Source: Candidatus Omnitrophota bacterium (lineage in GTDB: Bacteria; Omnitrophota; Omnitrophia; Omnitrophales; JACROU01). From it: DNA of 64,000 nucleotides. Below, one piece after another: positions 31,883-64,000 of this stretch. The notes under the pieces are model-generated. The model worked only from the letters and a program-made list of their open reading frames with translations, did no database searches and was not told the origin of the DNA. The position numbers were made by a program, and so were the translations under genes. Numbering within the stretch: the first letter of the stretch is position 1; each line of letters begins with the position of its first letter. Location of the stretch: assembly GCA_029261035.1 (NCBI GenBank), contig JAJDCD010000005.1, forward strand, positions 1-64,000, given 5' to 3'.

Positions 31883-31931
31883 GGGGCTCTCTGTATGACT
31901 AGCTAGGCAGCAGGCTTATGGAGACGTTTAA
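31883..31931 (+). promoter_or_regulatory. Structured leader (copy 1) covering the ribosome-binding site of the 2538-residue gene
   Basis: CTCTGTATG (31889-31897) can pair with CTTATGGAG (31915-31923) with one mismatch and two G-U pairs, closing a 17-base loop, ACTAGCTAGGCAGCAGG. The 3' arm contains GGAG, the ribosome-binding site of the ATG at 31931. The loop is almost identical in sequence and exactly equal in length to that at 46116-46132, while the stem sequences differ and still pair. GGGCTC lies just 5' of both stems. Confidence 0.65.
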
Positions 31932-34900
31932 TGAGATATGAAAAATACCATTCAACTCAAAAGCTCTTTTCAGTTCACTCTTTAGGTGAAAAAGTTGGAA
32001 GTAGTTTTTTAATTATTTTCTTCTTGCTGAGCACTCTTTTTGTTTCTCCTGAATCTCTTTTAGCAGAAACAGTTACCCATCAAAAACCTTCAGTATATTC
32101 TATTTCTCAAGTAAATCAAATTCATATTCCAAAAGAGTTTGGTATCGTTGAAGAAGTTTATCATTCATCTTCTCCAGCTAAAAACAATCCTATGATTGTT
32201 TATTTACAAGATGCTCACTGTATCTATGAGGCCCAATCAAATATTCGAAAAATAATAGACACTCTTCAAAAGAAAAATGGATTACGGCTTATTGCTTTGG
32301 AAGGCGGTGAGGGAGGATTGGACACAGACCTTTTTCGATCTTTTCCTGTTCAAGCAGTAAAAGAGAAAGTGATCGATGATTATGTTCGGAGGGGGGAATT
32401 GTCAGGAGCGGAGTATGCAGCAATTGTAAATGAAAAGTCTTCGGATTATTGGGGCATTGAGGACATGGTTGTTTATTACGAAAATAAAAATGCTTTTCTA
32501 GAATCAATTGACGATAAAAAACGAATCGATCTAAAATTAGATGATTTAGATCGTTGGTTAAAAAAGAAAAAAGATGAAATCTATAGTAATCCCCTTAAAG
32601 ATAATTTTAAAGAGTATGAAGCATACGAGAAAGAATATATTACATTACTCGATTACTTAAACTATTTAAAAGAGCAATGGATACAAGCGGGTAAATCGCT
32701 GACGGAATTTGCAAGTATCCAGACGTTGTTGGAAGCGATTAATCGAGAGAAGCAAATGGACTTCACTCAAGTTCAAAGTGAGGCGGTTAGGCTAGAAAAA
32801 GTTTTAGAACGACGCTATAAAAGTGAAATACGTTCTGGTTCAACGACGTCTAAAGTAAGCTTTCAAGATTTAGAAGCTCGAAGGTCCCTGTTTGGAGAAG
32901 GTAAGTCTCAAAAAGATCAATTTTACCCTTGGATTTGGGCGCGTGTTATAGAAGAGGATTTAGTTGCAGAAGATAGCTCTAATGATAGTTACCCCCATTT
33001 TCTTTCCTATATTAAACACTTACAGGAACTGGAAAATATAAAAGGCGAAAGTCTCTTTAATGAATTAGAGAAAATGAACCAAGGAATAAAAGATTCTTTA
33101 TTTCAAAATGAAGAACAAAGAACCTTGGATCAGCTTTTTTATAACTTAAAGATACTCCGTAATCTTTCTAAGTTAGAACTCACTCGAGAAGAGCTGGAGT
33201 ATTATCATAAGAATCGTGAGAGTTTGTCAGAGAAGAGTTTTTGGGATTTTATGGGAAGAGAATTGGGTCGGTTAGAATTGGATGATTTGTTCAAATCTCA
33301 TGAACGTTTTTATGAAGCGGCAATCAAAAGAGATCGTATTTTGTATCAAAACCTTATGGATTTGTTGAAAGAAAAGAAACAAGATTTTGCGATGGTGGTT
33401 ACGGGAGGGTTTCATACGGATGGTATTAAGGAACGCCTTAAAGCCAAAGGTTTTTCTTATATGGTTGTAACACCGCGCATCACCCAATTTGACGAAGAAA
33501 CTCCGTATTGGGATGTGATGCAAGGAAATGTTTCTTATGCGAAGTATAAAAAGACATTTACTTTAGCGCCAGAGTTAGCATTGCAGGTTTATAACGAAGC
33601 TATTGAAGCCGCGATTGTGGATTCCTTTGTTAGCGCAATAGAAGCAGATTTGCCTGAAGTTTTAAATTCATGGAGAGATAATGTCTTAACACAAGATTTA
33701 GATAGAGAAGTTGCAGCACAATACACAACAACGATTGATCGTTTGATTGACAGGCTTGTTTTAGGGTTAGAACAAACTCAAATTAACCCAGAGCTTATTC
33801 AAGGTGTGTCGGAAACTCTCCGGCTTTATTTGCAAGGTGAACGAGATGCCGTTGTCCAAAAAGTGGATCAGCTTCAAGCAAGAATTTTACAGCTCCAAAC
33901 TCAAAAAGTGGTTTCAAAAGCAGCGGTCAGTGCTGAGCTGGGTTCTTCATTTCCCGAATTTGCGTTACAAGAAGGAGTTTTTCAAGCTAGTTCTTTGGGA
34001 GCAATCGTTACAATTTCTGAAGCAAATCTATCTTCTTTTAATCGACTCCTAGACTTCGTTGATGCAGAAAGCATTAGGGATTTTTTAATTAATACAATTA
34101 GTTCTGTTGATGTAGAGTCTCAATTAGAGATGCTTGAACGGCTGTTGACACGTAATTCGGGTGAAAATGTCAAAATCGGTATTCCGATGACTCTCGCTGT
34201 AGAGCAGATGGTGGCTGTATATCAATTAAAAATAGGGGATGACTTAGGGGGTAAACGAAATCGGGATTTGGTTAAAATATCAAAATTGGAAATGGCAAAG
34301 AATTTATTGAAACAAATTAAACAAACAAAAGATAGTGGAAAACCTCTTTCTGCAGAGGGTCTTGAGTTAATGACAGGACTCTTTAATATGCTTCAACCGA
34401 TGTTCGATCGAACCGGGGCAAATTTAGAGTCAATGACCAATGTTTTGATTCGTAGAGATGATAGCGGAGTAGCTCCATTTCTGTCAGATAATGAGGCTGT
34501 GTTCATTATTGATCATATTTATCCAATCAGTTTTATCAATAAAAAGGACCCAACATATTTACTTGGGGATGCTTTAATTGCAGCGCAAAAAGCTGCGTTG
34601 ATAGGACTTAAAAACCGGTATCAGTATGAAGTGGATGTCTCTTCGAAGCGAGGTGTTGTTTTTGGGATTCAGCAAGCACTTCTAGAACAATTTCATACAG
34701 ACTACTTGGCTTTAGTTCAAGAAAACTTGAACAAAACAGCAGAAACTAATTCGAAATTAAAGGTGATATTAGATCAAAACCCTTCTCTCCTTAGTGATAG
34801 AGAGCTTTTTGGAGAGGGGAAAATTCGTGCAAAATACGCTTATAAAACGGGAGCTCAGATTAATGAATTGATTCCTACGTTAGGTCTTGGAATTCAATCT

Positions 34901-37900
34901 CTTCAGGAGCTGGGCAACGATAAAGCGTCAGAAAATATAGCAAATAAAATATCTAAATTGATTGTTCCTGAGTTGGAAGATATCGTTGAAGAAGTGAAAT
35001 TGAGTCAATTGAAAAGCTTAAATATCTTGAATCAGAATTTTTATAATTTGGGTCGTATTCCATCCGATGTGCGATTTAATGCTTATAATCGTCGTGGTCC
35101 CCCTCGAGTGAATGATTTTAGTGGTTTGTGGAGTAACGCAAATCTTCCAGGTATTGATATCGTAGTAGGTGAGCTATTAGAACAGCTTAAGAAAGATAAA
35201 GTTGATGACAAAATAGAGCCACTCCTTCCAGAGATTACAGATTACCTAATTCGATTATTGGAAGAAGCACTTGCTTTTACAGAACGGAACCCCCGACATC
35301 ACCTCTTATTTAATGAATTATTTTTTACATCTCAAGTTCGAGAATTGCTTCAAAGAGAATTTAATCCTAATGCGCTAGAAGAAATGCAGGTGGCATTAGG
35401 GGGTAATCGATTACCTGAAAGGTTAAATCATAAAACGTTTACGAAGGGAGATGAGCACTTTACTCTTTTTAGAGATCAATCTGGAAAAGTGAACTATTTG
35501 TTTGTGGACTTTGATAATTTTCAAGTGCTTGATTTATTACAACGTCAGCTAAATGTGCTTCCTAATGATGATGGTACTTTTTTTGATTTGCACGCACAAG
35601 TTGATTTGGCCTTGGAAGCGTTGATCGCGAGTAAAGAAGAGATCACCTCTCAGGATTTACAAGAAATGTTAGATCGAATTTTAGATCAAGTTGAAGTGGT
35701 TCTAGATTTATCCGACGAAGAAACTCAAAAATATCTAGAACGCCATAATATGGACCCAGAGACTTTTGAAAAGTATGGAGAAATTTATAACGACAAAGAA
35801 GGTGTTTTTGTGAGTGTACCGGTTAGAAGAGTGAGTGTGGATACTAAAACAAAATATGAGGACAAACGTCGCCTCACAGGTAAGATCGGAAATATTGGGT
35901 TTAGTTCTTCTTTAACTTCTGAATTAAATTTATCTAGAGAAGATTCCTTAGAAACGCTTTACAATAAACTGGAATCCATCTTAGGTTCTGGAGGTGTTGC
36001 TGTCGATATGCTCAAAGGGTTGAATAGAAGAGGGGAGAATGTGGAGCTTAACTCCACAGAGTATGGGCAAATATGGGGGGATTTCTTTAAAAAAGAAGCT
36101 TTGGAGAAAGTGAATAAAAAAAACATATTGAGAGAATTAAATTCCACAGAGTTGCAAAATATGGATGAAGAGGGAAAGGGGATTGCTGTACAGCTCATAT
36201 TAAACTTAAAAGAAGAGGTTCATGAAAATCGAGTGTATGTGATTGGTGAATTGGCTGATTTAGCGCTTCAATATGGGATAGAGTTTGCAGTGGTAGAAGG
36301 TTTTGTGAAGATGATGGATGGTTTAGAGTTAGAACAACCGGATATTATTTCAGCTCAATCGTTAGGAAATGCTCAAATTTCAGAATTATTGATTCAAGAC
36401 CTGGTTCAAGGGAATTCTCCAGAAGAAATTAGAGATTACTTAAAAACGGAAGATGTCGAAGAGCAAATTCGGGGTATTGGAAGTTTGCTTGCAGGAGCTA
36501 ATATCCGATCCTTTCAACGAGAGCAGCCAGGACAGTTTCAAGAACTTTTTACGGAGCTCGATGTGGAGTCGAGGCAAAGGGTTATTAATGCAGCTGTTAA
36601 AATAGCTACGGTTAAGAAAAAGCTAGCTAATTTTCTTCAGATTCAAAATCCAAACAACTTAAATTCATTGATTCAACGTTTTAGAAATTTAAAAGTTGAT
36701 GAAGATCCAGGTGTCATTATGTTGCGTTTCTTATCCGAAGAAGGGCGTAGAGAAGAATTTAAATCTAGAATGACTCAATTGCAGTTTAGAAATGATCTGA
36801 GGGATTATGTTCGAGAAGTAGTTGCAGAATTACCCGCCAAAGTTATTCCTATTAATCGAACTCAAGCAAAGCCTCATGTGGAAAATCAGATTCCTTTTGA
36901 TTTAAGAAGAGAAGATGCTCTCCTTTTTAAGGATATGGCAGAACTGCTACGGAATCAAAATCAGACAGATACAGCGCCTATTCTCCGATTGAGAGGAAAA
37001 GTTCGTTATGCGGGAAGAAATCTTGTTGGAGCGGGAACAACGCCTACTGAAAGAGGTATTCGTGCATTGACAGAACAGTATGGGCTAGAGGCTCCTACGA
37101 GTGACATTCAAACAACGACCGAAGAATTATTAAGAAAGATGAAGCAGCGTTATGTTCATTTACTTGGAGCTCAAGTTGCTTTGGGAATCCAAAATTCTGA
37201 TGAACTTACTCAATTTTTAGAGCGTATATCTCAGCAGGAAATCCCTATACTGACAGGAATAGAAGGGTTTGATTTATTAGAGGAGTTGATTGATGATCAG
37301 AAACTTAAAGAAATTGCTCCTGGTGTCAGTCATTCCTTTTTGGTTAATCAAAGAGGAAAAAGAAGTCTGGCTGTCCTTCGTCCTAATGAAATTATGTTTT
37401 TTAAACAATTTACATCGGTAAAGGAAAGGGTAGAAGCGCAGTTAATGGGTAAACGATTAGAGCGAGAGATTTCTCTTTCAAAACTATACCCACAAAGTGG
37501 TGTTACTGAGCGTATTTTGGATTTAGCGCAAAAGAATAGAGAGGGAGAACGTATTTTAGGTCTGGTTAAGCATTTTAAGAGACGTTACCCATCTCAAAAT
37601 GAAAGAGATCGTTGGCTCACTGCTGCTTCTGAATTAGGTGTGAACCGAGTCTATAAGCGAGAGGTTTCAAAGCGAAGTCGAGATGTGGAGCAAGCACGAA
37701 AAAGGCTCAATGAAATAAGTTCTAAAATAGCACGAAGAAAGAATTCAATTTTTTCTCGTTTTTTTAATATTGAAGCCTTAGAAAGCCAAAGAGAGCAATT
37801 AAGAAGAACATATCAAGCAGCTTTAGAAGAAAAGTCTTCATTTAAAGAAAAGTGGAGTTTGAATCCAGAAACAGGTAAATATCAATTAGCTCCTTCATCC

Positions 37901-39547
37901 AATATCTCTTTTTCCTATGAAGAAATTTACAAACAAGGTAAAGCACCTCTTTTGAAAGAGCTCATCGATTTACTTGCTTCTCAGGGTTATCCCTTTGGCG
38001 TTCTTGAAGGTCAAGAAGGGAGTATTACTTCTGTCTTAGAGCAGTTTGAGAAATTTTCAGCGCCTCTTCGTTTTTCAATGGCTCAAGGACGAGAAGAAAT
38101 GATAGCGGGATTAGATAGAAGTCAGCAGCAAGAGTTGGATCGTCTTATTGGAGAAATTAGATCGACAGATGTGGTATTAGATCGTTTAGACGCATTGTCT
38201 CCAAATGAATTTCCTATTAAAACATTTTCTGATCTCAATAATTTTCAAGTTGCTCAAAGAATAGAAGAGTCCGTTTATTCAGATGTATTAAGTCAGGCGG
38301 ATTTTCAGTTTAATTTTAACTCTAGACGAGTAGAAGGATTTTTGGAAGGAATTGTTCCGGAGGAAATTATTTTTGATTACTATAATCCAGTTGAGGCAAA
38401 TGCACTTGGAGAACAAGTGGATGTGGAGTTAATGCAAAACCAGATTGCTATTGCAACGGATATTGCCTTTATTGTTGCTGGATTATCTCCGCCTAGTGGA
38501 AGAGATAAAACAGACTATGAGCAGTCTGATTTTTCAGACTTCACTTTGTTTTTAGCAAATCTTAATGATGAAGATAGAGAAAATTTCCTTGTTAATTTAA
38601 GAGAAGGCGTGGCGACGGCATTTAGTACTCAATTGGATTTGAATAATATAACTCAAATAGCAGAGCAGCTGACATCGGCCTCAGGGCAACGCTCAAACGA
38701 AGAGTTGTTAACTCAATTGCGTTTGGCTACAGGTTTAGAATTATTAGATCTTTCTGATGTTGCTTTAGAGACGTTGCGTGAAACTTTGATTGCCCCTGTA
38801 CAAGTACAAGTGGCCCAATCGCAGTTGGTAAATCAGTTTGATGCTCAATATGTCGATATGACGCGGCGAATAGACTCTCCTCAAGAGTTGGATTTAATTG
38901 TAAAGGGCTTAGCAGATTATTATAATCAAGTTCTTGAAGGTATTATTTCGAGTAGTCCAAGTATTAAGGAGTCTTTGATTGTTCAGTATGATGGGAAGTC
39001 CTTTTTGGCGACTGCTAAAAATTTAAATAATTTAATTGAGACTCTTGAGTCTGTAGGAGCTAGAGGTAAAGTAATTGTCCATCATGATCCGAATCTGACT
39101 CAAGCGATTAATGATATTTTTTCTCAGCTGAGAGAGGCGGGGTATGGAAATTTGCTTTCTAAAATTCAAAAATCACGTTACCCTCTCAACTTAAGAGGAT
39201 CAGATGTGAATCGACATAGTCGTTTGGCCACACGTTCTGGATTTGGGTCTGTTGCTTATTTTGGCATTGAAAATGGAAGTGTTTTACAAGAGTCTAAAGA
39301 AGAGAATAAATTGCAAGGGGATGTTGAAAAGCTAGATCGTTTTCAACCCTTTGTTTCTCTTTTAAATCGATTTGCTGTGACTTTGGCTCAGGTTCCAAAA
39401 GAAAAGCAAGCTGAGCTTGTTTCGGAGTTTTCTAGTTTGGGAATTGAGATGACTCCTGAAGGTGTTCTTACCATTAATCTTCAATCTCTTATTAATCGTA
39501 TTACTTCTGAGTATCAATCTAGGGCTAAGGTTAAGGTTGCTGCGTAA
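31931..39547 (+). CDS. Giant secreted protein 1 (2538 residues): Tiki/TraB-like N-terminal domain, unknown middle, type-X C-terminus
   Basis: A long n-region and hydrophobic core (SFLIIFFLLSTLFVS) with likely cleavage after LLA near 45 direct it to the Sec pathway. Residues ~60-545 form the shared domain: QDAH (93-96), ALEGG (~120), YWGIEDM, GGFHTDGI (492-499) and TPRI. These His/Glu/Asp motifs recall Tiki/TraB/EreA-type hydrolases and ChaN-like haem proteins. Most of residues 550-2160 is helical, rich in Glu/Gln/Leu and unrecognised. SLG motifs occur near 688, 1474 and (as NALG) 2156. Residues ~2170-2538 match the end of the 3765-residue protein and finish KVAA. The start uses GGAG at 31920. 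Enzymatic role is inference; no database search was possible. Confidence 0.85.
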   Translation: MRYEKYHSTQKLFSVHSLGEKVGSSFLIIFFLLSTLFVSPESLLAETVTHQKPSVYSISQVNQIHIPKEFGIVEEVYHSSSPAKNNPMIVYLQDAHCIYEAQSNIRKIIDTLQKKNGLRLIALEGGEGGLDTDLFRSFPVQAVKEKVIDDYVRRGELSGAEYAAIVNEKSSDYWGIEDMVVYYENKNAFLESIDDKKRIDLKLDDLDRWLKKKKDEIYSNPLKDNFKEYEAYEKEYITLLDYLNYLKEQWIQAGKSLTEFASIQTLLEAINREKQMDFTQVQSEAVRLEKVLERRYKSEIRSGSTTSKVSFQDLEARRSLFGEGKSQKDQFYPWIWARVIEEDLVAEDSSNDSYPHFLSYIKHLQELENIKGESLFNELEKMNQGIKDSLFQNEEQRTLDQLFYNLKILRNLSKLELTREELEYYHKNRESLSEKSFWDFMGRELGRLELDDLFKSHERFYEAAIKRDRILYQNLMDLLKEKKQDFAMVVTGGFHTDGIKERLKAKGFSYMVVTPRITQFDEETPYWDVMQGNVSYAKYKKTFTLAPELALQVYNEAIEAAIVDSFVSAIEADLPEVLNSWRDNVLTQDLDREVAAQYTTTIDRLIDRLVLGLEQTQINPELIQGVSETLRLYLQGERDAVVQKVDQLQARILQLQTQKVVSKAAVSAELGSSFPEFALQEGVFQASSLGAIVTISEANLSSFNRLLDFVDAESIRDFLINTISSVDVESQLEMLERLLTRNSGENVKIGIPMTLAVEQMVAVYQLKIGDDLGGKRNRDLVKISKLEMAKNLLKQIKQTKDSGKPLSAEGLELMTGLFNMLQPMFDRTGANLESMTNVLIRRDDSGVAPFLSDNEAVFIIDHIYPISFINKKDPTYLLGDALIAAQKAALIGLKNRYQYEVDVSSKRGVVFGIQQALLEQFHTDYLALVQENLNKTAETNSKLKVILDQNPSLLSDRELFGEGKIRAKYAYKTGAQINELIPTLGLGIQSLQELGNDKASENIANKISKLIVPELEDIVEEVKLSQLKSLNILNQNFYNLGRIPSDVRFNAYNRRGPPRVNDFSGLWSNANLPGIDIVVGELLEQLKKDKVDDKIEPLLPEITDYLIRLLEEALAFTERNPRHHLLFNELFFTSQVRELLQREFNPNALEEMQVALGGNRLPERLNHKTFTKGDEHFTLFRDQSGKVNYLFVDFDNFQVLDLLQRQLNVLPNDDGTFFDLHAQVDLALEALIASKEEITSQDLQEMLDRILDQVEVVLDLSDEETQKYLERHNMDPETFEKYGEIYNDKEGVFVSVPVRRVSVDTKTKYEDKRRLTGKIGNIGFSSSLTSELNLSREDSLETLYNKLESILGSGGVAVDMLKGLNRRGENVELNSTEYGQIWGDFFKKEALEKVNKKNILRELNSTELQNMDEEGKGIAVQLILNLKEEVHENRVYVIGELADLALQYGIEFAVVEGFVKMMDGLELEQPDIISAQSLGNAQISELLIQDLVQGNSPEEIRDYLKTEDVEEQIRGIGSLLAGANIRSFQREQPGQFQELFTELDVESRQRVINAAVKIATVKKKLANFLQIQNPNNLNSLIQRFRNLKVDEDPGVIMLRFLSEEGRREEFKSRMTQLQFRNDLRDYVREVVAELPAKVIPINRTQAKPHVENQIPFDLRREDALLFKDMAELLRNQNQTDTAPILRLRGKVRYAGRNLVGAGTTPTERGIRALTEQYGLEAPTSDIQTTTEELLRKMKQRYVHLLGAQVALGIQNSDELTQFLERISQQEIPILTGIEGFDLLEELIDDQKLKEIAPGVSHSFLVNQRGKRSLAVLRPNEIMFFKQFTSVKERVEAQLMGKRLEREISLSKLYPQSGVTERILDLAQKNREGERILGLVKHFKRRYPSQNERDRWLTAASELGVNRVYKREVSKRSRDVEQARKRLNEISSKIARRKNSIFSRFFNIEALESQREQLRRTYQAALEEKSSFKEKWSLNPETGKYQLAPSSNISFSYEEIYKQGKAPLLKELIDLLASQGYPFGVLEGQEGSITSVLEQFEKFSAPLRFSMAQGREEMIAGLDRSQQQELDRLIGEIRSTDVVLDRLDALSPNEFPIKTFSDLNNFQVAQRIEESVYSDVLSQADFQFNFNSRRVEGFLEGIVPEEIIFDYYNPVEANALGEQVDVELMQNQIAIATDIAFIVAGLSPPSGRDKTDYEQSDFSDFTLFLANLNDEDRENFLVNLREGVATAFSTQLDLNNITQIAEQLTSASGQRSNEELLTQLRLATGLELLDLSDVALETLRETLIAPVQVQVAQSQLVNQFDAQYVDMTRRIDSPQELDLIVKGLADYYNQVLEGIISSSPSIKESLIVQYDGKSFLATAKNLNNLIETLESVGARGKVIVHHDPNLTQAINDIFSQLREAGYGNLLSKIQKSRYPLNLRGSDVNRHSRLATRSGFGSVAYFGIENGSVLQESKEENKLQGDVEKLDRFQPFVSLLNRFAVTLAQVPKEKQAELVSEFSSLGIEMTPEGVLTINLQSLINRITSEYQSRAKVKVAA

Positions 39548-45103: not shown

Positions 45104-45104
45104 A

Positions 45105-45124: not shown

Positions 45125-45139
45125 GGACAGGGAAGTTTA

Positions 45140-55100: not shown

Positions 55101-57447
55101 ATTAGAGTTAGATGCTAAAGGTTTGGTGTCTCGTCTATTGAGTTTAAAGGATTTTAAGGAACCTAGCTTTTCTGAGGAGTCGGGGGCCGTACAGGCGGCA
55201 TCTTTAGGAAATGTTCTGCCTAAAAAAGAAAATATATTAGATGTGATGACACCTGAGCGTGTAGAGCAAGCGATTAACGCCTTGAATTATTCAACGGAAG
55301 TAAGGCCAACGGATTCTTTGGGAAACCCTGGAGCTTTAATTAATATTAAGGGAGCTCGCCGTTTATTTTCTATTGGGGATTTGCATGGACGTTATGACAA
55401 TTTGGAAAAAGCACTTCTGTCTCGTGATGGGTTTGGGTTAACGATGCTTGACGCTCTCAATAGAGGAGATACGCATCTCGTTATATTGGGTGATGCGATT
55501 CATGCAGGTTCAGCAGATACATCGGATGAAGCTTACTTAGATTCTTTTCGTTTGATGATGGCGATTATGAATTTAAAAGCACAATTTCCAAATTCGGTTC
55601 ATTATATTTTAGGAAACCATGATGCTTCTAATATTGGGGATGTTGAAAAGAATCGTCTGCAAAATTCCACTTTTAAACAAGGAGCTGTTCAGAGTTTTAA
55701 GTTTGAAGTGCTTGTAAAAAAAGAGTTTGGATCAGAACGCTTAGAACAAGTGAAACGGTTTTTTGAGAAATCTCCTGCGGCTTCTAAAGTGTCCTATAGA
55801 GATCAAGCGGTTCTTTTGGTTCATGCAGGTTTGACAAGCGATGTCCAAACAGAAGAGGCTTTCGTTAATTTGTTTGTCAGTAGTCAGGGTAAAAGGAGTT
55901 ATGATTCAAAAAAATTGCAAGGGGTACTGACGAATCGAAAGTTTGATCCAACTCTCATTCGTAGTGGAGCTGAGAAAGTGGGAGTTGATTTAGTCGTATC
56001 AGGGCATAACCCTCCGTTTCATCGTTCTGCAAAAAGGCAAGGGTTACAACCTATTCAGGATTGGAATCGTTTTGCGGCCCATGTGGATAACAAACAAATT
56101 GTGTTGGATGCACAAGATGGTAATGCGGGGCACTTTGACCTTGATTTGGGACGTCCCATACCACAAGATGTTTCTTATTTAGAAGCGGTGGATGGCAACA
56201 GTGCTTTTGTGTCTTACCAGCCTGTTGCTGTGGAAGGTAATTCTCTTGGAACAGCGGTTCTGGATAAAGGAGCAACAGAAGATGTTGAGCTAAGACTTAA
56301 AAATGCATTTGAATTCAGTCGAGTATTGGCTGGGGTATCGTTTGCAACCACGAATAAAGCAACGTTAAACCAGCAGTTTCGAGACTTTATCTCCTTTGCA
56401 TTAAATATTGATCCAGTAAAGAGGACATCTTTTTTAAATCAGTTAAAACAAAACTTAAAAACTACTTTTGAACAATTGGTAAAACCAAATGAATTAGGCG
56501 CTTTAACTCAAAAACTAGCAAATCGTCAAGATTTTACAGATGCTTCTCTTAGGGAATTCTTTGTGGATGAATTTGGAACAGACGGAATTTTAGAAGGGGA
56601 GCAATTAGGAAGTTTTAGAGATCAAGTGAATCAGGTTTTAGGAGTAACTCGAGGAGTTGCTGGAGAAAGAACATCGGCTCAAGTAGGAAGTGTAAATGTA
56701 CAGCAAGGGCTAAGAAGTTTTGATGCGAGTATTACCGCTTTGATGCAAGAATCAGAATTTCCAGCAACATTTGATGCTGATTTGTCCTTAGCGTTAGATG
56801 CGATTGAAAGTGAATTTTCAACAAGGTTAGGCCTTTTAGAGCAGGATTTTGGAGATCAACTAAAACAATCAACTCAGATTCAGTTTGATGGAGATGCTTT
56901 CTTGGCAACAGCACAAGATTTGACTAATATTCAAGAAACATTAAAGGGAATAGGTAACAAAGGAAAGCTTATTGTTTATCATTTACCATCCCAGACCGCA
57001 GCTATTAATGATGTGTATGCTCAACTTTCTGCTGAGGATAAAACAGCTCTTTCTAAAATTAAAAAAGTGCGTTCTCCTGTGATTCATGTTTCAGATTTAG
57101 ACCGAGCAACAAAAAAAGCCGTTAGAGAAAATCAAGGCACAGCAATTTTGTTTGGTGAAGGGAAGTTAAAGGCGCTTCTCAGGGCAAAAGATTTTAATAA
57201 AATGCAAACTAATGTGGATACTCTTGATAAATATTCTCGTTTGATCTCTATACTGAACCAGTTTGTTTTAACACTATCTCGTATTCCTGAAGATGATACA
57301 ACGGGAATGAGGCAACGTCTTATTGAGGAATTTAAGGATTTAGGGTTTAAAGAAGAAAATGGAATTATCACTATTGATTTGAGTCGATTAGTTCAACGGG
57401 TTACAGCAGAATACAAAGCTGTGGCAGCTGCTAAAAAGGCAGCTTAA
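46150..57447 (+). CDS. Giant secreted protein 2 (3765 residues): Tiki/TraB-like, repeats, FHA, J, kinase-like and PPP-phosphatase domains
   Basis: Signal peptide (LVFFFFLINSVFYPIS, cleavage near 45). Shared domain ~55-540 with QDAH (89-92) and GGFHTGGI (485-492). About five degenerate ~100-residue repeats at ~805-1260. FHA domain ~1925-2045 (ISIGRSE, SGSHLKL, SKNGTV). TPR-like helices ~2125-2190. J domain ~2210-2265 (VKKAYRKLMIKYHPDRYG; HPD at 2239-2241). Basic Arg/Pro-rich stretch ~2355-2400. Kinase-like module ~2475-2610 (YYLLKEM, LLDEDRFANNFLV, SIDH). PPP/calcineurin-like phosphatase ~3070-3300 (GDLHGRYDN, LGDAIH, GNHDA, HAGL, SGHNPP). C-terminal module ~3383-3765, shared with the 2538-residue protein, ends KKAA. 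SLG motifs near 675, 1376, 2270, 3015 and 3362 separate domains. Combined function unknown. Confidence 0.88.
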   Translation: MNSYSGQPNSCQVERNVLLKKVGSLLVFFFFLINSVFYPISEVWSNPTFNSIVIPSVNKIEIPKEFGIVEEVYQSPTATENNPLIIYLQDAHCIYEAQFNIKNLIQSFQEEHNLNLVALEGGSGALETDLFRSFPVQEIKEKVIDGFVRKGELSGAEYAAIVNPKESTYWGIEDMDIYYENKEAFLKSIEVKERVDMKLLDIRRWLKKKKDEIYSKRLKENFDKSEDYETERINLLEYIKYLIASAKSLNLDLSSYVAMAELLQGMEREKTIDFTQAQSDAFNMERDVERFYKNSSGAEAQEALKDFQSKITDFKERKVEKDQFYPWLWSYAKRMGVVSEGEGKSQYRNLSHYINHLNQLEQIQGEELFKELEQIDREIKSQLFENEEQKILDQHFYHLKILENLSKLELTREELAYYQSNKELFEEQQFWEFMDRNMGRLELDDLFQPHMKFYDAALKRDQVLYDNLMSLMDKQNKKFAMVVTGGFHTGGIKEKFKKEGFSYLVLTPRITHFDDETPYWDVMKGKVSYAKYKQTTTLSPELALNVYKEAAAQEISNQLAQAITDDLPSVLNQWKQNILQRQAQGENQVQIVDGLINQFVLGLKEVGLEGSAAEQLQKALNAYFQGQLEVAVKSIEALENLLSSPDIEGVSPIDVQNVLQQNQQTRAEVQNLESANAFSLGDVKAAYTEIETEMQLLGLDFQDFNLFTALLPRGEGTREEFAIKVTRYLESVENPEVSLTESERSENLKLDNFFKGSFKRGIFSDEIPASKISAARVVLDKIKTLLPSAQDVFEKEEAEFQEKKGQVLTYLQSVRYSPGIALEELLNFRSITNETGQPVFPGGLWDYEDLDRMDEDADVVAAIEAASSLYREEEGRVALEQELLAERKRQEKETAIRSFYADILNANQSDFDALITELQGSEKALEKRLSPLGIAVAITSSTGETEFKELSLWDFDTLDILERPDIQALKLSSEQKIRTEIERRKRVEEAAKDAQRINDFNRRAALAADYFKNLTLDPQKELQEILDGIYQLKDKNGASVVSLWSLDSVEDHSDVQSAKASAIDRLTQAKQEWDRINQQYAESSQFVDRATKVSQLTQYYDGLLGQYQLGMDIEQMASPFQATYVTVNEAGEQVQSRVLNGWTDSDWSISELDEVKALAEKVKAQLETRKTELEILNQQYAENQEFISYANRIQKQIRFYNNLSYEPGMDVFEAADIYRNSELRPLFSIWEDDSSQKDVLVLKARNNALDRLARQEAASEESLLPQGFYAVHSATAAQKIASILDAAVSNNPRLATRIQINKDNGAVKDIKLDNSFLDVEQDGNPLTRISSSLEDWSGITPGENFKGLSLDDSKVLLEIDNLLFSIDGEGNYEEVSAQSLGVREIYEELEEDLELLKITPRQFQSLAHDLKAASKNRRNYIATVQKVVDTLLSGNEHVYSADEQSVKDVIDRYFRAGLKKKGIFSRAIPSQNIKAAEDVLSRIASFVSRGKRLQTSLAKKISEKYNVGQVDAERRASELVNTLFDRGESAQDLMQVANELIKNIRINQPGVKNKGRLDWLEFFELLEVSPDITAQQLLTLIQNFAEKNIPAGPFLDFAQASESSSQDSERSIVDQDIGRIVAPFKDYGIKNLRHFVNAFSVEGEEGASYFSLFSRNNGPQELDFIKRLGRIFPSAINTQDVVDRFTDAGLIQEDIGVYLSDALAQGEQLGRLTQLSRILIEFSIDEENEDAVRAFLLSIQSKLPDSFSGIREVVNKIVVQTSINPIEVQPFYEFNQGIAFSDEHKKLVLASVLLRQAQVSEADVFNLLNTNKSLSELGIEVSNQVAKEFYVTAFDDRGFSQIRKRLGDLVNKINASNPQKRFAYRQSGSDLLKTRKDQLLMAIRRAKIKEEQRVEAEERRKVFERQAAEQRVLESPVRIKQSLIKGEPIIIDSNNPITFELAGQSDFSLSLLPLSTGEIGIYLVNQAGQSFPLNIGTNNVLREGEDISIGRSELESFNLPGIVRVSGSHLKLRVDAKADGSGKHISITDTSKNGTVIQVDGTLGSLGDNLSSAIADRVRKANIDAVVLDLIADKPTGFPVGVNMQEYSRIEGILSELGGSQLRRNEAALKRVLRAAVQKMSLPTLEESLEQGRNLRVDGQFDQAIDYYLNLPVQQQQNVNVQLGLFHSYLGAKQLENAASVLEDLNISRTLSDYEKEARRGQLERFNTEGIPYMLLDAAIGAEYVDVKKAYRKLMIKYHPDRYGNESQEIQDAVKNISAALNGAHTSIEITAKSLGQLGTLDKIQVRSDESLNTLIPFIQRTRDNSLKRRLDSILSKPPNQRDVREVNQLIQQIARGLKVHPSRLFKSPVQPQRSRGAAVLSRTRRAPERAPRLVPSGRREQVPVKRQRRRRVAPPQTPQVRIQDKSLYDQEAQAIQRALQEAERRAAFSREQQRVRREARIAAIEEQLKKPLVERLETVSLEEVESILQGSIASGIQGRRNYFKDSVTGDYYLLKEMTFATFGDVLHSEVSDLVGFDSVRAEYVENFNGKTGLLTKIVRDSQTLGDFTRFSNHGNIDSRGVVQDLKKASVVDLLLLDEDRFANNFLVTVSVDGKARLHSIDHPPSEIDSYTKYLETLGLTEQNVGRGRSFASDLEAVGRLVDLQKIVDDITKQSQFGNNAKKEIARRFQIISQNLFNSGNPEDQKMASKIGGKLRDYLILQAYVKNQLSQAVQVKGANGVTLRGSRYFGLNDQDIDFNRDLLPVITELKEKLTDEKIDSILESANIPQEKRNAVRETMRLRRDLIEEVLREYYSRPREIDASIGYLTPDDVTNELLITDRVFQRAVEKEVLPVLEEIRDTALSEGKVEVLVERAKLSKALVQVAVKLKRLTADFTTRVGETPRPDENVVKSNQGKDLIDLRIYQLLFFVEQFNQIVDTAGKTPIQKLILGRSTAEIAPLLRLSPQKGVVNKDIYAAIKSLSVLSRPAPTNPNFNNLMQRRENKLELDAKGLVSRLLSLKDFKEPSFSEESGAVQAASLGNVLPKKENILDVMTPERVEQAINALNYSTEVRPTDSLGNPGALINIKGARRLFSIGDLHGRYDNLEKALLSRDGFGLTMLDALNRGDTHLVILGDAIHAGSADTSDEAYLDSFRLMMAIMNLKAQFPNSVHYILGNHDASNIGDVEKNRLQNSTFKQGAVQSFKFEVLVKKEFGSERLEQVKRFFEKSPAASKVSYRDQAVLLVHAGLTSDVQTEEAFVNLFVSSQGKRSYDSKKLQGVLTNRKFDPTLIRSGAEKVGVDLVVSGHNPPFHRSAKRQGLQPIQDWNRFAAHVDNKQIVLDAQDGNAGHFDLDLGRPIPQDVSYLEAVDGNSAFVSYQPVAVEGNSLGTAVLDKGATEDVELRLKNAFEFSRVLAGVSFATTNKATLNQQFRDFISFALNIDPVKRTSFLNQLKQNLKTTFEQLVKPNELGALTQKLANRQDFTDASLREFFVDEFGTDGILEGEQLGSFRDQVNQVLGVTRGVAGERTSAQVGSVNVQQGLRSFDASITALMQESEFPATFDADLSLALDAIESEFSTRLGLLEQDFGDQLKQSTQIQFDGDAFLATAQDLTNIQETLKGIGNKGKLIVYHLPSQTAAINDVYAQLSAEDKTALSKIKKVRSPVIHVSDLDRATKKAVRENQGTAILFGEGKLKALLRAKDFNKMQTNVDTLDKYSRLISILNQFVLTLSRIPEDDTTGMRQRLIEEFKDLGFKEENGIITIDLSRLVQRVTAEYKAVAAAKKAA

Positions 57448-57492
57448 TATGTGTCCTCTTTTGGGGTAGAATGGATATGCTTAAAGATAGTT

Positions 57493-57667: not shown

Positions 57668-60600
57668 ATGAAACGGATTAGAATTGCTTTCATATATTTT
57701 ACTTTGCTGACGTTTTGCAGTACTTCTATGCCTCAACATTCTTTTGCTGAAGCTGCAAAAGAAAATGTTTCTATCAAATCATTCCTGGATATCTCACCTG
57801 ATTTAGCTCTTGTGGATGAGGTTTATTATCCTAAAAACTCTAAAAACAAAGACAAATTCCTTATTTTCATTCAAGATCATCATGCGTCCGTACAGATGCA
57901 ACGTCAAATAGCTCAGTTGATTCAGTGGTATGTTAAAGAAAAGCAAATTCCTTTGGTGGGTTATGAGGGAAATCGAGGTTTAATTCAGACGGATAAAGTT
58001 TTTTGGGTGCCCAGCCCAGAACTTAATTTAGAAGTGTCAGAGTACTTTCTCAAACAGCTTCAAATATCAGGCCCAGAATATGCGCATATCAATAAACAAA
58101 AAGAATTTGATTTAGTGGGTGTTGAAGATATGGGTTTGTATCGAAAAAATTTAAAATTGTTTCAAGATGCTTTCCGAATACGTTCTGAAGCAGAAGGTAT
58201 TCTTAAGGTGCTAGAAAAAGAGATTGAAAGAAGTATTCGCTCTAGAGCTTCAGACTCCTTGATTAAGATTTTTGCAATGATGAAACAATATCGAGATAAC
58301 CCAAGAGAAATGTATGCGTACTTAGAGTTTCTCAGCAAGAGAGACCCTGAACAAGTCGCGATGTTAAAACAAATTCAATTGCTTCAAGAATTAGATCAAT
58401 CCCAAAAAAAATGGGATCCGTTAAAGCTTGTAAATGAGATGGGTGGATTTTTGCTTCAAAATAATATCAATGTAGATTCCGAACAATTGAAAATAGAAAT
58501 TTCTCAACCTTCAGCAAATACAAAAAAAGCAATTCGTAATATGTCAGATGGAGAGAGGTCTGCTTTTCCTCTAATAAACTCTTGGTCGAATTATATCGAA
58601 AAAAGAGATCAGTTGGATGTTTCGGAGCTTTATAAAGAGCTGAGTATTTTAGAAAAAAACGTTGTTAAGCGTCTAGCACAAGCAGAAGGTTTGTACCCAT
58701 TGTTTGAAGCTTGGTTTCATGTAGAGGCTTTGAAGAGTATTTTGTATTTGTCTGCAACGAGACAGCAAGTAGAGGAGTTCTGGACTCAACCGCTGTCTTA
58801 TAAACAAAAATATTTTACTGACACATTAGCACCTTATTCAAAAGGGATTGAAACACAGTTAAAGAATAAAAATTTAGATTCCTTGATGCGATTTCCAAAC
58901 CAATTTTATAGAACCGCTTTGGATCGAGATCTTGTTATGGCTCGTCAAATTATGAAGTACCTAGAAGATCAGAACCGAATGCTTTTTGTGTCTGGAGGTT
59001 TTCATAGACGAGGGGTGACTCAAGTGCTTCGAAGAAACAAAATTCCCTATGCGGTATTAACACCTCAAGTAGACACGGATCAAAAGATTCAAGACAAAAT
59101 TTATATGCAACGTGTTTTAAATGCTCCATGGATTGAGACGGGTCAGTTTGGCCGAGTTCAAAGTTTTAGACAGCCGACTTTGTTTAATCAGCTGCCTTCC
59201 AAAGCGCGTGTTCTGGTGGACCAAGTGGCCATGCGTATAGCTCGTCAAGTAAAGCGGTTGGAAGTGACTGTTCCTCAAATTCAAGCGATGCTTCAGGACG
59301 ACATGGATCGTTTTTTAAATAGAGGTTTTCAACCTGTGTCTGCGCAAAGCCTAGGGGATACGACCGTCTTGGACACGAGTTTGCTTTTTCCGCAAGACCT
59401 TATTGAAGATCAATATGATGATAGTCCTGTATTACTTCTTTTTAAGGCTAGAATGGGAAACACTCCTGAACAGACTCCTGAATATGAATTTGCAACGGAT
59501 GTGGATACTCAAATAACAAGATCTATGGAACCTGGCGTTAGGCAGGTTCTAAACCAAATCCAGCAAATCAAAAATAAATTGGATACGATAAATAAAGAGA
59601 TTTTTTATGGTGTGCAAATACATGTAATGAGAAATTCATCAAAATCAATTTCGTTGAGGGAGGAGCAGAAGCAGCTTATCTTAGAAGTTGATTATCGACT
59701 TTTTGTAAATAAAAATATTTTATTTCCAGCAATCATAGAAATAATCATGGGTAATCATCTGAGGGAAGTTCCCAACTTACAATGGGTTAAACTGTATGCA
59801 GTATTTGAAGCTTTAAAATGGTTGGCAAATTCTCAGCCGGATTCAGATGTGCAAGCTTGGCTGCTTAGAAGTTTAGCCCATGATGATGTTCAATATTATC
59901 GGTTTGCTCAATTCATGACAGATAACTGGCGAACTTTTGACCCAAATCAAGAGCGAGAAATTCATTTTTCGGATTTGGATCAGCAGCCGCTGCTTGTTGG
60001 GATTGCTAACGAAATTTGGCCCAAGAGTAAGGAGCAAGAAGCTGAGATTCAACAGCTGAATCCAGAAGCCGCAAGTTTTGACTTGGAACAGTTTAAAATT
60101 TTATTTGGAGATCTTGATCAAGTAACAGAAGCTCTAGAACATATTCACAGCTATCGGGAAATTAAACAGGTTGAAGTAACTATCGATAACCATGTAGCAA
60201 ATATGGACGATTTAACAAAAGTTCAATTGTATGAGATTATAGACCGTATATTGGCTACTGAAGCTCGAGATCGGGAACATCGCCTTCATTTCGTTCGTTA
60301 CTTGATGAATTTTTTAATTGTTAATCAGAGGTATGATTTAGCGACACATATTATGTTTTTAATTAAAGATACTCAGGATCCCATGGATACAGTTATTCGT
60401 GTGTATGAAGGGATGGATTTAGGTGCATTAATGGGCGTTCAGTTAGAAGTACATGATGTAGCAAGTTTTCTGTCTTATCTTCATGAAGAAGGTGTGGTCT
60501 TTGGAGCGGAACGTTATACCGTGGAAGATATTGCTTTTTCTGCTGCCGATGCATTTCCAGAACTTGAGGGTGTTAGTAACGATCAAATTAATGAAGTTTA

Positions 60601-61846
60601 CGAAACGTTTGAAGCTATTGTGTATGGGGCAAGTTTAGGTCGAAATGTTTTGGAATGGGCTATTGATTATAACCCTGATTTGATACAACAGAATTATGAT
60701 TTAGACGATGAAATTGATCGAAGAGTCAGAGATTTTCAAATGGTCCTTTTGGGGCTGAGGAATGAAGGTGGGGCGCTTAAGGAATTTGAAAAAAGAGTAG
60801 ATCTTGCTGCGAGGACATTAAAGGGACTTATTAATAACGCTTTGGATGCTATCGAAATGCTGGGAGAGTCTGGTTCTGTTAGTATATCATCACGCCTTGG
60901 AGGTGGTAATTTGCGCGTGAAGGTTAAAGATACAGGAGAGGGTGTGCCTCAGGGTGAAAGAGAAAGATTGTTTGTAGAGGATATCGAATCCAGAAAGTTA
61001 GGTTATGCTGATGGAAGTATGAGAGGAGGGATGGGGGTGTTTTTAAAAGCTTCTAGAATGAATTTATTGCGTTTGGGGGGGGATATTAATATTTTTCCTC
61101 AGAGTGAAGAAAGAGGATCTCTTTTTTCATTTTCTTTGCCTCTGTTAGAGCGTTCTAAAGAACAGCGCAGTGAGGCAAAAAGTTTGGGGCTTCAAAATCA
61201 GAAAGTCAAAGAAAGGTATCAAGAAGTTGTTGTGGACATCAATCATGTCAGCGTATTGCCTTTTTTCTTAGAACGTTTAATTTTATTGTTGGAGCATTCA
61301 AAGTACAAGAGGGTTACTTTTTTGATTCGTAGTAAGCAAGATGAGGGTGCTGTGAAGCAAGAGTTGAAACATTTAGGGATTTCAAGCCGTGCATTGAACA
61401 GAGTTCGTTTTAAAGTAAACCCCTTATTAACACCTCAGGATTTAGAAGAACTTAACCATTATTTAGAAGAGGTACAAAGTGATTTATCTTCAAAAAATAA
61501 GAAGTTTAGAAAAAAAGAAAAAGTATTAGATGTAGCAATGATTGCGAATTATCAAATACTTTTTAATTTAGATACGAAGCAATTTGTTACGCTTGCGAAT
61601 GATCGAGTTGCGCGAGGTCAACAAGTTCAGTGGTTTCAGGCAACGAGCAGAGAAGAGGAGATGGGTGCTGTTTGGACTTTGTTTTCTTCAGCTTGGGAAT
61701 TGCTTTCAGATAAACAAACGAACAAAACGACCCGAAAGGATTGGAGAACGGGTATTTATTTAGTCAATTTTAGCTATTTAACAGAATCGATGGAGCGGTG
61801 GTTAAATCAGTACCGACAAGAGCAAATTATACGCATTGCCGCATAA
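57668..61846 (+). CDS. Giant secreted protein 3 (1392 residues): divergent Tiki/TraB-like domain plus GHKL ATPase domain
   Basis: Signal peptide (IRIAFIYFTLLTFCSTS, cleavage near SFA-EA). Shared domain ~40-475 in a divergent form: QDHH (69-72), YEGN, VGVEDMG, GGFHRRGV (443-450). A helical module ~640-760 contains LILEVDYRLFVNKNILFPAI, as in the 1114-residue protein. A GHKL (HATPase) fold at ~1035-1160 has the N box LINNALDAI, G1 box DTGEGVP (Asp1088) and G2 box GGMGVFLKASRM. No phospho-acceptor H-box is seen before it, so it is not a normal histidine kinase. The last ~210 residues match the end of the 1114-residue protein and finish RIAA. SLG motifs near 558, 985 and 1170. An ATPase fold behind a signal peptide is unusual. 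Confidence 0.88.
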   Translation: MKRIRIAFIYFTLLTFCSTSMPQHSFAEAAKENVSIKSFLDISPDLALVDEVYYPKNSKNKDKFLIFIQDHHASVQMQRQIAQLIQWYVKEKQIPLVGYEGNRGLIQTDKVFWVPSPELNLEVSEYFLKQLQISGPEYAHINKQKEFDLVGVEDMGLYRKNLKLFQDAFRIRSEAEGILKVLEKEIERSIRSRASDSLIKIFAMMKQYRDNPREMYAYLEFLSKRDPEQVAMLKQIQLLQELDQSQKKWDPLKLVNEMGGFLLQNNINVDSEQLKIEISQPSANTKKAIRNMSDGERSAFPLINSWSNYIEKRDQLDVSELYKELSILEKNVVKRLAQAEGLYPLFEAWFHVEALKSILYLSATRQQVEEFWTQPLSYKQKYFTDTLAPYSKGIETQLKNKNLDSLMRFPNQFYRTALDRDLVMARQIMKYLEDQNRMLFVSGGFHRRGVTQVLRRNKIPYAVLTPQVDTDQKIQDKIYMQRVLNAPWIETGQFGRVQSFRQPTLFNQLPSKARVLVDQVAMRIARQVKRLEVTVPQIQAMLQDDMDRFLNRGFQPVSAQSLGDTTVLDTSLLFPQDLIEDQYDDSPVLLLFKARMGNTPEQTPEYEFATDVDTQITRSMEPGVRQVLNQIQQIKNKLDTINKEIFYGVQIHVMRNSSKSISLREEQKQLILEVDYRLFVNKNILFPAIIEIIMGNHLREVPNLQWVKLYAVFEALKWLANSQPDSDVQAWLLRSLAHDDVQYYRFAQFMTDNWRTFDPNQEREIHFSDLDQQPLLVGIANEIWPKSKEQEAEIQQLNPEAASFDLEQFKILFGDLDQVTEALEHIHSYREIKQVEVTIDNHVANMDDLTKVQLYEIIDRILATEARDREHRLHFVRYLMNFLIVNQRYDLATHIMFLIKDTQDPMDTVIRVYEGMDLGALMGVQLEVHDVASFLSYLHEEGVVFGAERYTVEDIAFSAADAFPELEGVSNDQINEVYETFEAIVYGASLGRNVLEWAIDYNPDLIQQNYDLDDEIDRRVRDFQMVLLGLRNEGGALKEFEKRVDLAARTLKGLINNALDAIEMLGESGSVSISSRLGGGNLRVKVKDTGEGVPQGERERLFVEDIESRKLGYADGSMRGGMGVFLKASRMNLLRLGGDINIFPQSEERGSLFSFSLPLLERSKEQRSEAKSLGLQNQKVKERYQEVVVDINHVSVLPFFLERLILLLEHSKYKRVTFLIRSKQDEGAVKQELKHLGISSRALNRVRFKVNPLLTPQDLEELNHYLEEVQSDLSSKNKKFRKKEKVLDVAMIANYQILFNLDTKQFVTLANDRVARGQQVQWFQATSREEEMGAVWTLFSSAWELLSDKQTNKTTRKDWRTGIYLVNFSYLTESMERWLNQYRQEQIIRIAA

Positions 61847-61941: not shown

Positions 61942-62042
61942 TTAATATATTTATAAAGTACTAATAAACACGGTATGGATTAGGTATTATGGGGTTTGGG
62001 TGTGCGGGCCAGACACCTTAAGAGTAAAACGGGGAAGTAACT

Positions 62043-64000
62043 ATGGGGATCAATATAAAAGGCTTATACCAAAAGCTAATAGCAGTTTTGGTTGTAGTCT
62101 CCTTTCTTTTTTCTGACATTTCATTATGGGCACAGTCTGCGTCTGCTCAGATCCAAAGTTTACCAAAATCAACAAATGCTATGAGTAAAGGGGTTCGTAT
62201 CCCGGATACTTTAGGAAGTATTCAAGATGTTCATTGGTCTGAGGGAAGTGAACGTTTTGTTGTTTTGATTCAAGATGCTCATGCCATTCAAGATGCTCAA
62301 TCGAATATTCAACAGCTCATTCATTATTTTCAAGAGAACTATGGAATTGATATGGTTGCGTTTGAGGGGGCGCAAGGTACATTAGATAATCGTTTAATTA
62401 AAACATTCCCAGACTCTGAAATTGTCAGTAAGGTTATGAATCAATATTTGAAAAATGCCGAAATTACCGGAGTTGAAATGGCATCTTTGTCTGATGGAGG
62501 TTTTGTCCAATATGTGGGTATCGAAGACTGGGAATTGTATGAACAAAATTTCTTTTCTTATGTTCATGCATTAAAAAATCAAAAACGCATTCAAAATGAG
62601 CTTAATGTTTGGAAGCAGGCTTTAGACTCCAAAAGAAAAACGCTGTATTCTGAAGATATGAATCGTTTTCATAATATGATTTATGGATTTTATGAGCAAA
62701 AGATTGATTTACTTGATCTTTTGAAATATTTAAAAGAGATTCCTTCAGTTCAAAATACTTTGACCACTTATACCTACCTTAATAGTTTGATTAAACTAAT
62801 GGACGAAAATGAAATTGTTAACAATGAAGAAATTCGTTCAGAAATTTTAAGTGTTTCTAACCATTTTTATAAAAGTCATTTCTCTAAGCTAGAAAAAAAA
62901 GATCAAAAAGAATTAAATCAAAAACTCCAGGCCCTGAATACAAGTTCACTTGCTCCTGGTGTTTTTTTGAAATGGCTTTCAGACCTTAAAGACCACTATA
63001 GGATACCTGTTGAGTTTTCTTCTACATTAATCAAAACAATTAAGGTTATGGAACGTTTTGATGTGATGAGAGGGAGCGAAGTTTTTGATGAGCTTAATCA
63101 GGTTATTTTAGCAATTGAAAAGGAATTAGCTCTTAGTAGTGATGAACAGGAAATGGCTGCTTTGTATCGAAAAACTCGTTTCTTAGATAGTTGGGTTCGT
63201 TTGGAAATAACCAAAGACGAGTGGATGAAATTTGCAGATCAAAGGGAGGGGTATCAACAGTTACTAGAGGCGCTAGGGTTAGAAGAAGCTTTTGAAACCA
63301 TGTTAGATTTTTACCAATTGGCGTTACTTAGAGATGATATTCTTTTTCAAAATTTAGTTAAACAAATGAGGAAAGCGGATAAAAATAAATCGATGCTACT
63401 TCTAGGGGGTTTTCATGCCCAAGGAATAAAACAACAACTCAAAGATTCGGGTTATTCTTATGTGAGTATCATGCCTCGAATTAATGACCTTGAAGGTAAG
63501 GATGTTTATCATAAAGTGATGCGTGGACATTTATCGTATCAAGAACATATTTCAACAACAATTCAAGACGCATTCTTAAAAGATGTGGCTATTCAACTTA
63601 CAAATCATTTAAATCCTTCAGAATATCTTTCTAAGTTAAAGCAATGGAGAGATGAGGTGATTCGTTCTCTAGCGAACGAAGGAAAAGTTTCTAAGGCGAA
63701 ACAGTACACACGTTATATTGATCCTTTGTTTAAAAATTATTATGATTTATCACAGCAAGATCAGAAATCGAACTTAAATAAGGAACAAATACTTTCAGAA
63801 GTTCAAAAAGTGTTTCAGAAGACGCAAGAAGAAACAGCCCATACTTTATGGAGCCGTTTCGAGAGCCAATTAAAGTCCTTTGAATTGGGTTTGAACCAGC
63901 TTGAAAGAAAAGATAGAAATGATCCTATGCAAATACAAAATTTAATGGAAACGATTAATGCCTTAGAGCCGGCCGCTTTGGTTCAGTTAGCTCACCCGTT
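62043..64000 (+). CDS. Giant secreted protein 4, partial: Tiki/TraB-like N-terminal domain, continues past the right edge
   Basis: Open from the ATG at 62043 (GGGGAAG upstream) through the window end, 652 codons without stop. Signal peptide (LIAVLVVVSFLFSDISLWA, cleavage near ASA-QI at ~35). Shared domain: QDAH (77-80), AFEGAQGTLDNRLIKTFPD, YVGIEDWELYEQN, GGFHAQGI (455-462), MPRI, and KVMRGHLSYQEH. The segment after ~500 is helical with ELGLNQLERKDRND. It is closer to copies 1 and 2 in the first motif and closer to copy 3 in several linkers. The C-terminal module and any extra domains lie outside the window. Confidence 0.87.
   Translation, partial: MGINIKGLYQKLIAVLVVVSFLFSDISLWAQSASAQIQSLPKSTNAMSKGVRIPDTLGSIQDVHWSEGSERFVVLIQDAHAIQDAQSNIQQLIHYFQENYGIDMVAFEGAQGTLDNRLIKTFPDSEIVSKVMNQYLKNAEITGVEMASLSDGGFVQYVGIEDWELYEQNFFSYVHALKNQKRIQNELNVWKQALDSKRKTLYSEDMNRFHNMIYGFYEQKIDLLDLLKYLKEIPSVQNTLTTYTYLNSLIKLMDENEIVNNEEIRSEILSVSNHFYKSHFSKLEKKDQKELNQKLQALNTSSLAPGVFLKWLSDLKDHYRIPVEFSSTLIKTIKVMERFDVMRGSEVFDELNQVILAIEKELALSSDEQEMAALYRKTRFLDSWVRLEITKDEWMKFADQREGYQQLLEALGLEEAFETMLDFYQLALLRDDILFQNLVKQMRKADKNKSMLLLGGFHAQGIKQQLKDSGYSYVSIMPRINDLEGKDVYHKVMRGHLSYQEHISTTIQDAFLKDVAIQLTNHLNPSEYLSKLKQWRDEVIRSLANEGKVSKAKQYTRYIDPLFKNYYDLSQQDQKSNLNKEQILSEVQKVFQKTQEETAHTLWSRFESQLKSFELGLNQLERKDRNDPMQIQNLMETINALEPAALVQLAHP

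Follow-up and report, generated by a model that had tools for sequence, protein, structure and literature searches.

Giant exported proteins of an Omnitrophota bacterium share a Tiki/Ere-like head, a lineage-specific linker tag and C-termini rich in terminal Ala-Ala

The 64,000-nucleotide stretch analysed here (contig C21:1-64000, hereafter the window) belongs to the 2.70 Mb, 26-contig genome of a Candidatus Omnitrophota bacterium and carries, at 31,931-64,000, five large open reading frames (ORFs) that encode giant exported proteins, P1 to P5. Close inspection of the locus confirmed what a first examination of the letters alone (the sequence-only reading) had recognised, namely that four of the five share their N-terminal plan: P1-P4 start with a hydrophobic, signal-like segment followed by one homologous domain of ~480 residues, referred to here as the head, and the four heads align with one another over ~500 residues with E values down to 1e-54, far from chance. 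P5 (39946-43290) has the signal-like N-terminus and no head. Downstream lie copies of a short peptide, [AG]xSLG (the tag), and a C-terminal region with terminal Ala-Ala, arranged as follows (lengths in amino acids, aa):

31931..39547, + strand: P1, giant exported protein of 2538 aa with signal-like N-terminus, head, two [AG]xSLG tags and a C-terminal module ending VKVAA
32093..33691, +: P1 head (Tiki/Ere-like hydrolase fold; profile match E 2.2e-163; 50-sequence alignment)
33986..34000, +: tag ASSLG, P1 residue 686
36353..36367, +: tag AQSLG, P1 residue 1475
38381..39544, +: P1 C-terminal region, ends -VAA, 33% identical to the homologous region in P2
39946..43290, +: P5, exported headless giant of 1114 aa with two tags and a P3-homologous tail, ends -QAA
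40240..40254, +: tag AASLG, P5 residue 99
42610..42624, +: tag ASSLG, P5 residue 889, where the C-terminal module starts
42619..43287, +: P5 C-terminal module (32% identity to P3 tail)
46150..57447, +: P2, giant exported protein of 3765 aa with head, five tags, DnaJ and metallophosphatase domains, tail -KAA
46312..47901, +: P2 head (profile match E 2.0e-165)
48178..48192, +: tag AFSLG, P2 residue 677
50278..50292, +: tag AQSLG, P2 residue 1377
52786..52929, +: DnaJ domain, P2 residues 2213-2260, ending 11 residues before the next tag (PF00226, E 2e-07, over cut-off)
52963..52977, +: tag AKSLG, P2 residue 2272
55195..55209, +: tag AASLG, P2 residue 3016
55372..56010, +: calcineurin-like phosphoesterase domain, P2 residues 3075-3287, sole domain between two tags (PF00149, E 4.7e-10)
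56236..56250, +: tag GNSLG, P2 residue 3363
56401..57444, +: P2 C-terminal region, ends -KAA, homologous to that of P1
57668..61846, +: P3, giant exported protein of 1392 aa with head, three tags, HATPase domain, tail -IAA
57782..59077, +: P3 head (weak sub-threshold Pfam ChaN and TraB matches)
59342..59356, +: tag AQSLG, P3 residue 559
60626..60640, +: tag GASLG, P3 residue 987
60809..61144, +: histidine-kinase-type ATPase domain, P3 residues 1048-1159, sole domain between two tags (PF02518, E 1.9e-11)
61175..61189, +: tag AKSLG, P3 residue 1170, ~10 residues past the ATPase domain
61184..61843, +: P3 C-terminal module, ends -IAA, homologous to P5 tail
62043..63998, +: P4, giant exported protein with 652 aa in the window and 2607 aa in the full contig, four tags past the window, tail -RAA
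62160..63686, +: P4 head (the modelling query was P4 residues 38-541, from 62154-63665)

These proteins follow a common plan, and they are numerous. The P4 head, used as a query against its own genome, gave 58 matched stretches and 45 head-bearing ORFs; giants were rebuilt from the stretches around the matches, and the resulting 44 head ORFs together with headless P5 form the 45-protein set considered below. This set of mostly exported proteins amounts to 139,980 aa, or 15.5% of the genome, with a median length of 2,538 aa (most between 1,200 and 6,000 aa, the largest 16,198 aa); ORFs above 20 kb are those of 16,198 and 8,077 aa. The head was found in all 39 relatives searched, and the wider survey that the sequence-only reading had called for recovered it in 142 members of a 285-genome sample of the phylum, including every sampled genome of the order. 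Its named relatives (79 loci) are all from Omnitrophota, and none turned up in the viral contigs searched.

The tag occurs 210 times in the 45 proteins against 7.5 copies expected in shuffled sequences, with permuted forms at background, and is hardly seen in other ORFs. It is present in 44 of the 45 (up to 24 copies per protein), the exception being a stand-alone head of 497 aa (G000:C16:405715-407205), which has a signal-like N-terminus and ends without the Ala tail. All 210 copies lie in frame, compared with at most 8 in any other frame, and the wobble positions vary freely (93 synonymous spellings of 163); selection therefore acts on the peptide, and the same two observations rule out a DNA-level or translational role. 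The flanks are poor in order-promoting residues and not conserved in sequence. Within each protein the first tag comes after the head, and the last one 223-307 residues (quartiles) from the end. The 16,198-aa head-bearing ORF (G000:C26:18888-67481) has 8 tags only, with untagged stretches of up to 8,501 aa.

The segments between tags match a broad range of domains, among them Ser/Thr kinases, HATPase, Macro, PPDK, phosphoglucomutase, AAA, WD40 and exonuclease, as well as DNA-binding domains of the LuxR and sigma-70 region 4 types, and the kinases that were checked retain intact HRD and DFG motifs. Where domains could be recognised, their edges lie near a tag: RNase_T, HATPase and DnaJ domains end ~10 residues ahead of one, while the kinase domain at residues 1104-1400 of G000:C16:19774-29967 begins right after the tag at residue 1098. 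The product of that ORF is exported and contains five Ser/Thr kinase domains, of which two or more start straight after a tag. Kinase, HATPase, PPDK and DNA-binding-type domains normally need ATP or DNA; in exported proteins, such cargo suggests use in the cytoplasm of another cell. Delivery of modules into other cells can be put forward tentatively and would fit the dependence on hosts that has been proposed for Omnitrophota (PMC10066038).

The sequence-only reading had noted in the head a series of motifs (QDxH, EG, G(I/V)ED, GGFH) reminiscent of the Tiki/TraB/EreA/ChaN superfamily. An alignment of 50 heads shows nine invariant residues, H43, E71, G122, Y129, Y387, R393, G418, G419 and H421 (P4 construct numbering; the His, Glu, Arg and His of the active site are His80, Glu108, Arg430 and His458 in P4 itself). 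Among them are the QDxH His, the EG Glu, an Arg and the Gly-Gly and His of GGxH, while the Q and D of QDxH and the Phe of GGFH, also called invariant, are conserved in at least 90%. The invariant Arg, which had been missed, stands 28 residues before the GGFH His in 41 of the 50 heads. The distance from His to Glu, given as about 25 residues, is exactly 28 in 50 of 50, and G(I/V)ED sits not in the middle of the domain but ~80 residues past the His, in its first third. Among 44 heads of the genome, 43 could be placed by pattern and 42 of these carry the Glu at +28. Between Glu and Arg lies a helical part of 255-364 residues, in agreement with the estimate of about 300.

The AlphaFold2 (AF2) model of the P4 head construct is of high confidence (predicted local distance difference test score, pLDDT, 92.6; predicted template modelling score, pTM, 0.87). 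Its top Foldseek match in the PDB is EreC, at an E value of only 0.014; upon realignment with VIA-align 2, the six best rows were HopBA1, EreC (two entries), Bcr135/136 (two entries) and ChaN, with Z scores of 8.3-9.4, the same set that is listed as the Tiki superfamily in the work on RRSP (PMC6254334). The catalytic residues of EreC (H50, E78, R261 and H289; PMC7979712) are spaced by 28 and 28, as in the head, and the His-Glu gap is also 28 in RRSP (H3902/E3930) and Bcr135 (H85/E113) (PMC6254334). Structure and spacing thus support the proposed kinship. The suggestion that the helical insert is unlike described members holds for its size (255-364 residues from Glu to Arg, compared with 183 in EreC) and not for its presence, since the fold of EreC and Bcr135/136 already includes a helical minor lobe (PMC7979712). 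The helical part looks like an enlarged version of that lobe and, judging from the order of the motifs, would occupy the same topological position.

Sequence comparison is less informative. The best Pfam matches of the heads to ChaN (PF04187) and TraB (PF01963), of which ChaN is the commonest among the sub-threshold ones, reach 14.7 and 11.0 bits against curated cut-offs of 27.7 and 26.8; the erythromycin esterase profile (PF05139) found no match in the genome, although controls did match. The profile-profile check that had been proposed lent no sequence-level support either, with hhalign assigning the head and EreA a probability of 3-5% although the two were in register at the His and Glu. 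Searches of the PDB sequences with hmmsearch and other sequence-only searches gave sub-threshold or unrelated weak matches, and a comparison with PHROGs added nothing on the head. Because the profiles stay below significance, the head is placed by its fold and active site and in no named Pfam family; the model and the active-site residues support its assignment as a new family of the Tiki/erythromycin-esterase superfamily. As most of the ~45 paralogous copies keep the site, the head is quite probably an active hydrolase of this superfamily.

The far end of the giants is similarly distinctive. Of the 44 complete giants of the genome, 42 have Ala as the last residue and 34 have Ala-Ala as the last two, while among 78 other ORFs these endings occur in 7 and 2, respectively; in relatives the numbers are 15 and 11 of 20 giants, against 51 and 9 of 470 other ORFs. 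The tails of P1 and P2 and those of P3 and P5 are shared pairwise. One larger tail subfamily, A7, forms the extreme C-terminus of giants from four further genomes (two each from families f1 and f4; a fifth genome, G022, matches only weakly), with a nearly invariant Trp and a terminal Ala-Ala. The AF2 model of A7 (pLDDT 86) shows a Rossmann-like module followed by a final long helix, with no specific relative in the PDB (best Z 7.3), and A7 aligns end to end with the tails of the window, but at 2-4% probability. Three head-bearing proteins from outside the order (L193, L194 and L197, families f14 and f28) have bodies that end ...AAQAALKSL, ...AAQAVARAL and ...AAARQTLIAL, a pattern that looks common to them, and not in Ala-Ala.

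The tag differs between lineages. Other Omnitrophota were represented by 67 head ORFs, in which the 16 copies of [AG]xSLG are close to background, whereas another peptide, RSExR, occurs 249 times against 4.6 expected, in frame only and in more than 20 assemblies; conversely, RSExR is absent throughout the giants of this genome. Families f3, f7 and f8 use R[SA]ExR, as do most other families of the order, f6 uses GxSLG, and the sampled families outside the order have neither [AG]xSLG nor R[SA]ExR. In a tree of relatives sampled with a P4-like query, the P4 head groups within heads of RSExR genomes (Shimodaira-Hasegawa-like approximate likelihood ratio test, SH-aLRT, 97-99), yet the body of P4 contains four SLG tags and not a single RSExR; the type of tag thus goes with the genome and not with the descent of the head. 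The simplest reading is one tag reader per genome. A giant of G008 (L188, family f7) carries a different repeated string, RxQGT / EQGTG, which occurs 7-9 times and may be either a further lineage tag or a repeat.

Elsewhere in the window, the trehalose-6-phosphate synthase and trehalose phosphatase genes (29417-31694) directly precede the giant locus, and the space between the giants at 43523-45907 holds genes for a VWA-domain protein, which is exported, and for an exonuclease III-like product, both without head or tag. At 3-10011 on the minus strand, a large exported protein of 2,647+ aa, cut by the end of the window, adjoins a ShlB/FhaC-type transporter; on visual inspection it resembles a TpsA of the filamentous-haemagglutinin type (no Pfam match at 1e-5), and the two are likely a two-partner secretion pair.

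Taken together, these features point to exported modular polyproteins that would be processed or sorted at a lineage-specific tag and whose head is probably an active hydrolase, a reading to which we assign a probability of about 0.5. Each giant would comprise a signal peptide, a Tiki/Ere-type hydrolase head, a series of modules joined by the tag of the lineage and a C-terminal module ending in Ala-Ala. The protein would leave the cell by its Sec-type signal; the head, a putative metal-independent hydrolase with a His/Glu/Arg/His site, may act in cis on its own protein or nearby; and the tail may serve as a sorting or export-related element. Given that each genome has its own tag and sister lineages differ in theirs, the tag would be recognised by a common factor, most likely a protease that splits the exported product into its modules (the head need not be the tag-cutting enzyme), and at least some modules may end up in another cell. 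The tag has an even chance of being such a processing site. Somewhat less probable is a genome-wide peptide code, in which a single trans-acting factor recognises one short tag between the modules of dozens of otherwise unrelated exported giants, whole sets have changed tag in the course of lineage divergence (from RSExR to AxSLG or the other way round) and enzyme modules, strings of up to five kinases for instance, are released or sorted for other cells. The suggestion in the sequence-only reading that the head is a shared processing, anchoring or delivery module becomes more likely with the discovery of the tag and the tail, two features which that reading had missed.

Several observations weigh against polyprotein processing by a common factor. 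Neither candidate processor stands out: signal peptidase I is present in one copy, and the S41 tail peptidase is absent in half of the relatives. Head and tag are separable, because P5 has tags without a head, whereas the stand-alone head has no tag and those known from outside the order lack both the tag and the Ala tail. The tails did not fall into one sequence family, with only the A7 subfamily aligning, and the kinship of the head remains below significance at the level of sequence profiles. In the giant with five kinases (L080:575-10768, minus strand) the head Glu is off the +28 position, and the P4-like sampling biases the clustering by tag type on the tree. In addition, the Ser codon of the tag is AGT in 61% of copies against 24% in the background and, in view of this bias and of that at the first Arg of RSExR, copying of the linker by duplication therefore contributes. 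Finally, transmembrane (TM)-like segments are numerous in several giants, which may be surface structures.

The last point leads to an alternative that we regard as unlikely on balance: the tag could be a sorting or docking signal for export or surface assembly, with the giants staying whole as a coat or adhesin and the head acting as a hydrolase in the envelope. Giant ORFs of Omnitrophota have earlier been proposed to be coat proteins or adhesins (PMC10066038), and the tail is conserved and C-terminal, as sorting signals are; nonetheless, sorting needs one tag where up to 24 sit at the borders of one protein, and the cargo consists largely of cytoplasmic-type enzymes. The codon bias (98% TCN in RSExR, alongside the AGT excess) likewise suggests common descent of many copies, as would be seen if the tag had no recogniser and were a linker spread by duplication and recombination of modules within each genome. 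This is the least probable of the explanations considered, given the free wobble positions, the in-frame occurrence and the unconserved flanks, and given that RSExR is missing from the giants of this genome and that neutral linkers would decay.

Two further alternatives concern the head. Doubtful, in our view, is a role as a non-catalytic carrier or ligand-binding domain that aids export or anchoring: ChaN has the same fold and binds haem (PMC7979712), and it is the Pfam family most often matched below threshold, but nearly all of the ~45 diverged paralogs retain the full His/Glu/Arg/His set at the Ere spacing. That the head is itself a protease cutting the tags in cis seems more improbable still. 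The superfamily does include proteases, among them Tiki proteins and RRSP (PMC6254334), nearly every giant bears an intact copy of the head, and MARTX toxins are known to be cut in cis, there by a different protease; against this stand the tagged but headless P5 and the tagless heads inside and outside the order.

The giants combine traits of several known systems. With the Tiki/TraB/EreA/ChaN superfamily (EreC, Bcr135/136, HopBA1, ChaN, RRSP), the head shares the fold, the order and spacing of the catalytic His/Glu/Arg/His and the helical lobe; it differs in falling below every Pfam cut-off, in its larger helical part, in a first acid that is mostly the Asp of QDxH, and in being fused to giant exported proteins at ~45 copies per genome. 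MARTX toxins resemble the giants as large secreted proteins with serial effector modules released by cutting between them (a step only predicted here), and their effector RRSP belongs to the Tiki superfamily (PMC6254334). Unlike them, the proteins described here have a Sec-type N-terminus, a lineage-dependent tag and dozens of paralogs per genome, and the five window proteins (P4 over its first 652 aa) gave no Pfam match at E 1 to RTX repeats or the cysteine protease domain. The processed export motif PEXEL of Plasmodium, a short peptide on many unrelated exported proteins with one reader and one copy near the N-terminus, offers another parallel; the tag is likewise common to many unrelated exported proteins but is present in many copies at internal module borders. 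The giants also belong to the same phylum as the Omnitrophota giant ORFs of Seymour et al. 2023 (PMC10066038; including Ca. Velamenicoccus), with which they share ORFs above 20 kb and few recognised domains; the description in the part of that paper drawn on here does not contain the shared head, the tag or the Ala-Ala tail, and most giants here are shorter, at 1,200-6,000 aa. In the open-access literature (preprints and most subscription papers fell outside the search) we found no paper on this head, tag or tail.

The giant ORFs of Omnitrophota have so far been called poorly conserved, with few annotated domains (PMC10066038), and unexplained. Head, tag and tail make them one countable class that can be divided into testable modules, and where a protein exceeds the length that can be modelled entire, the tag shows the borders at which to divide it for structure prediction. 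As a class, the giants provide a handle on how this phylum, difficult to grow and dependent on hosts, may affect other cells.

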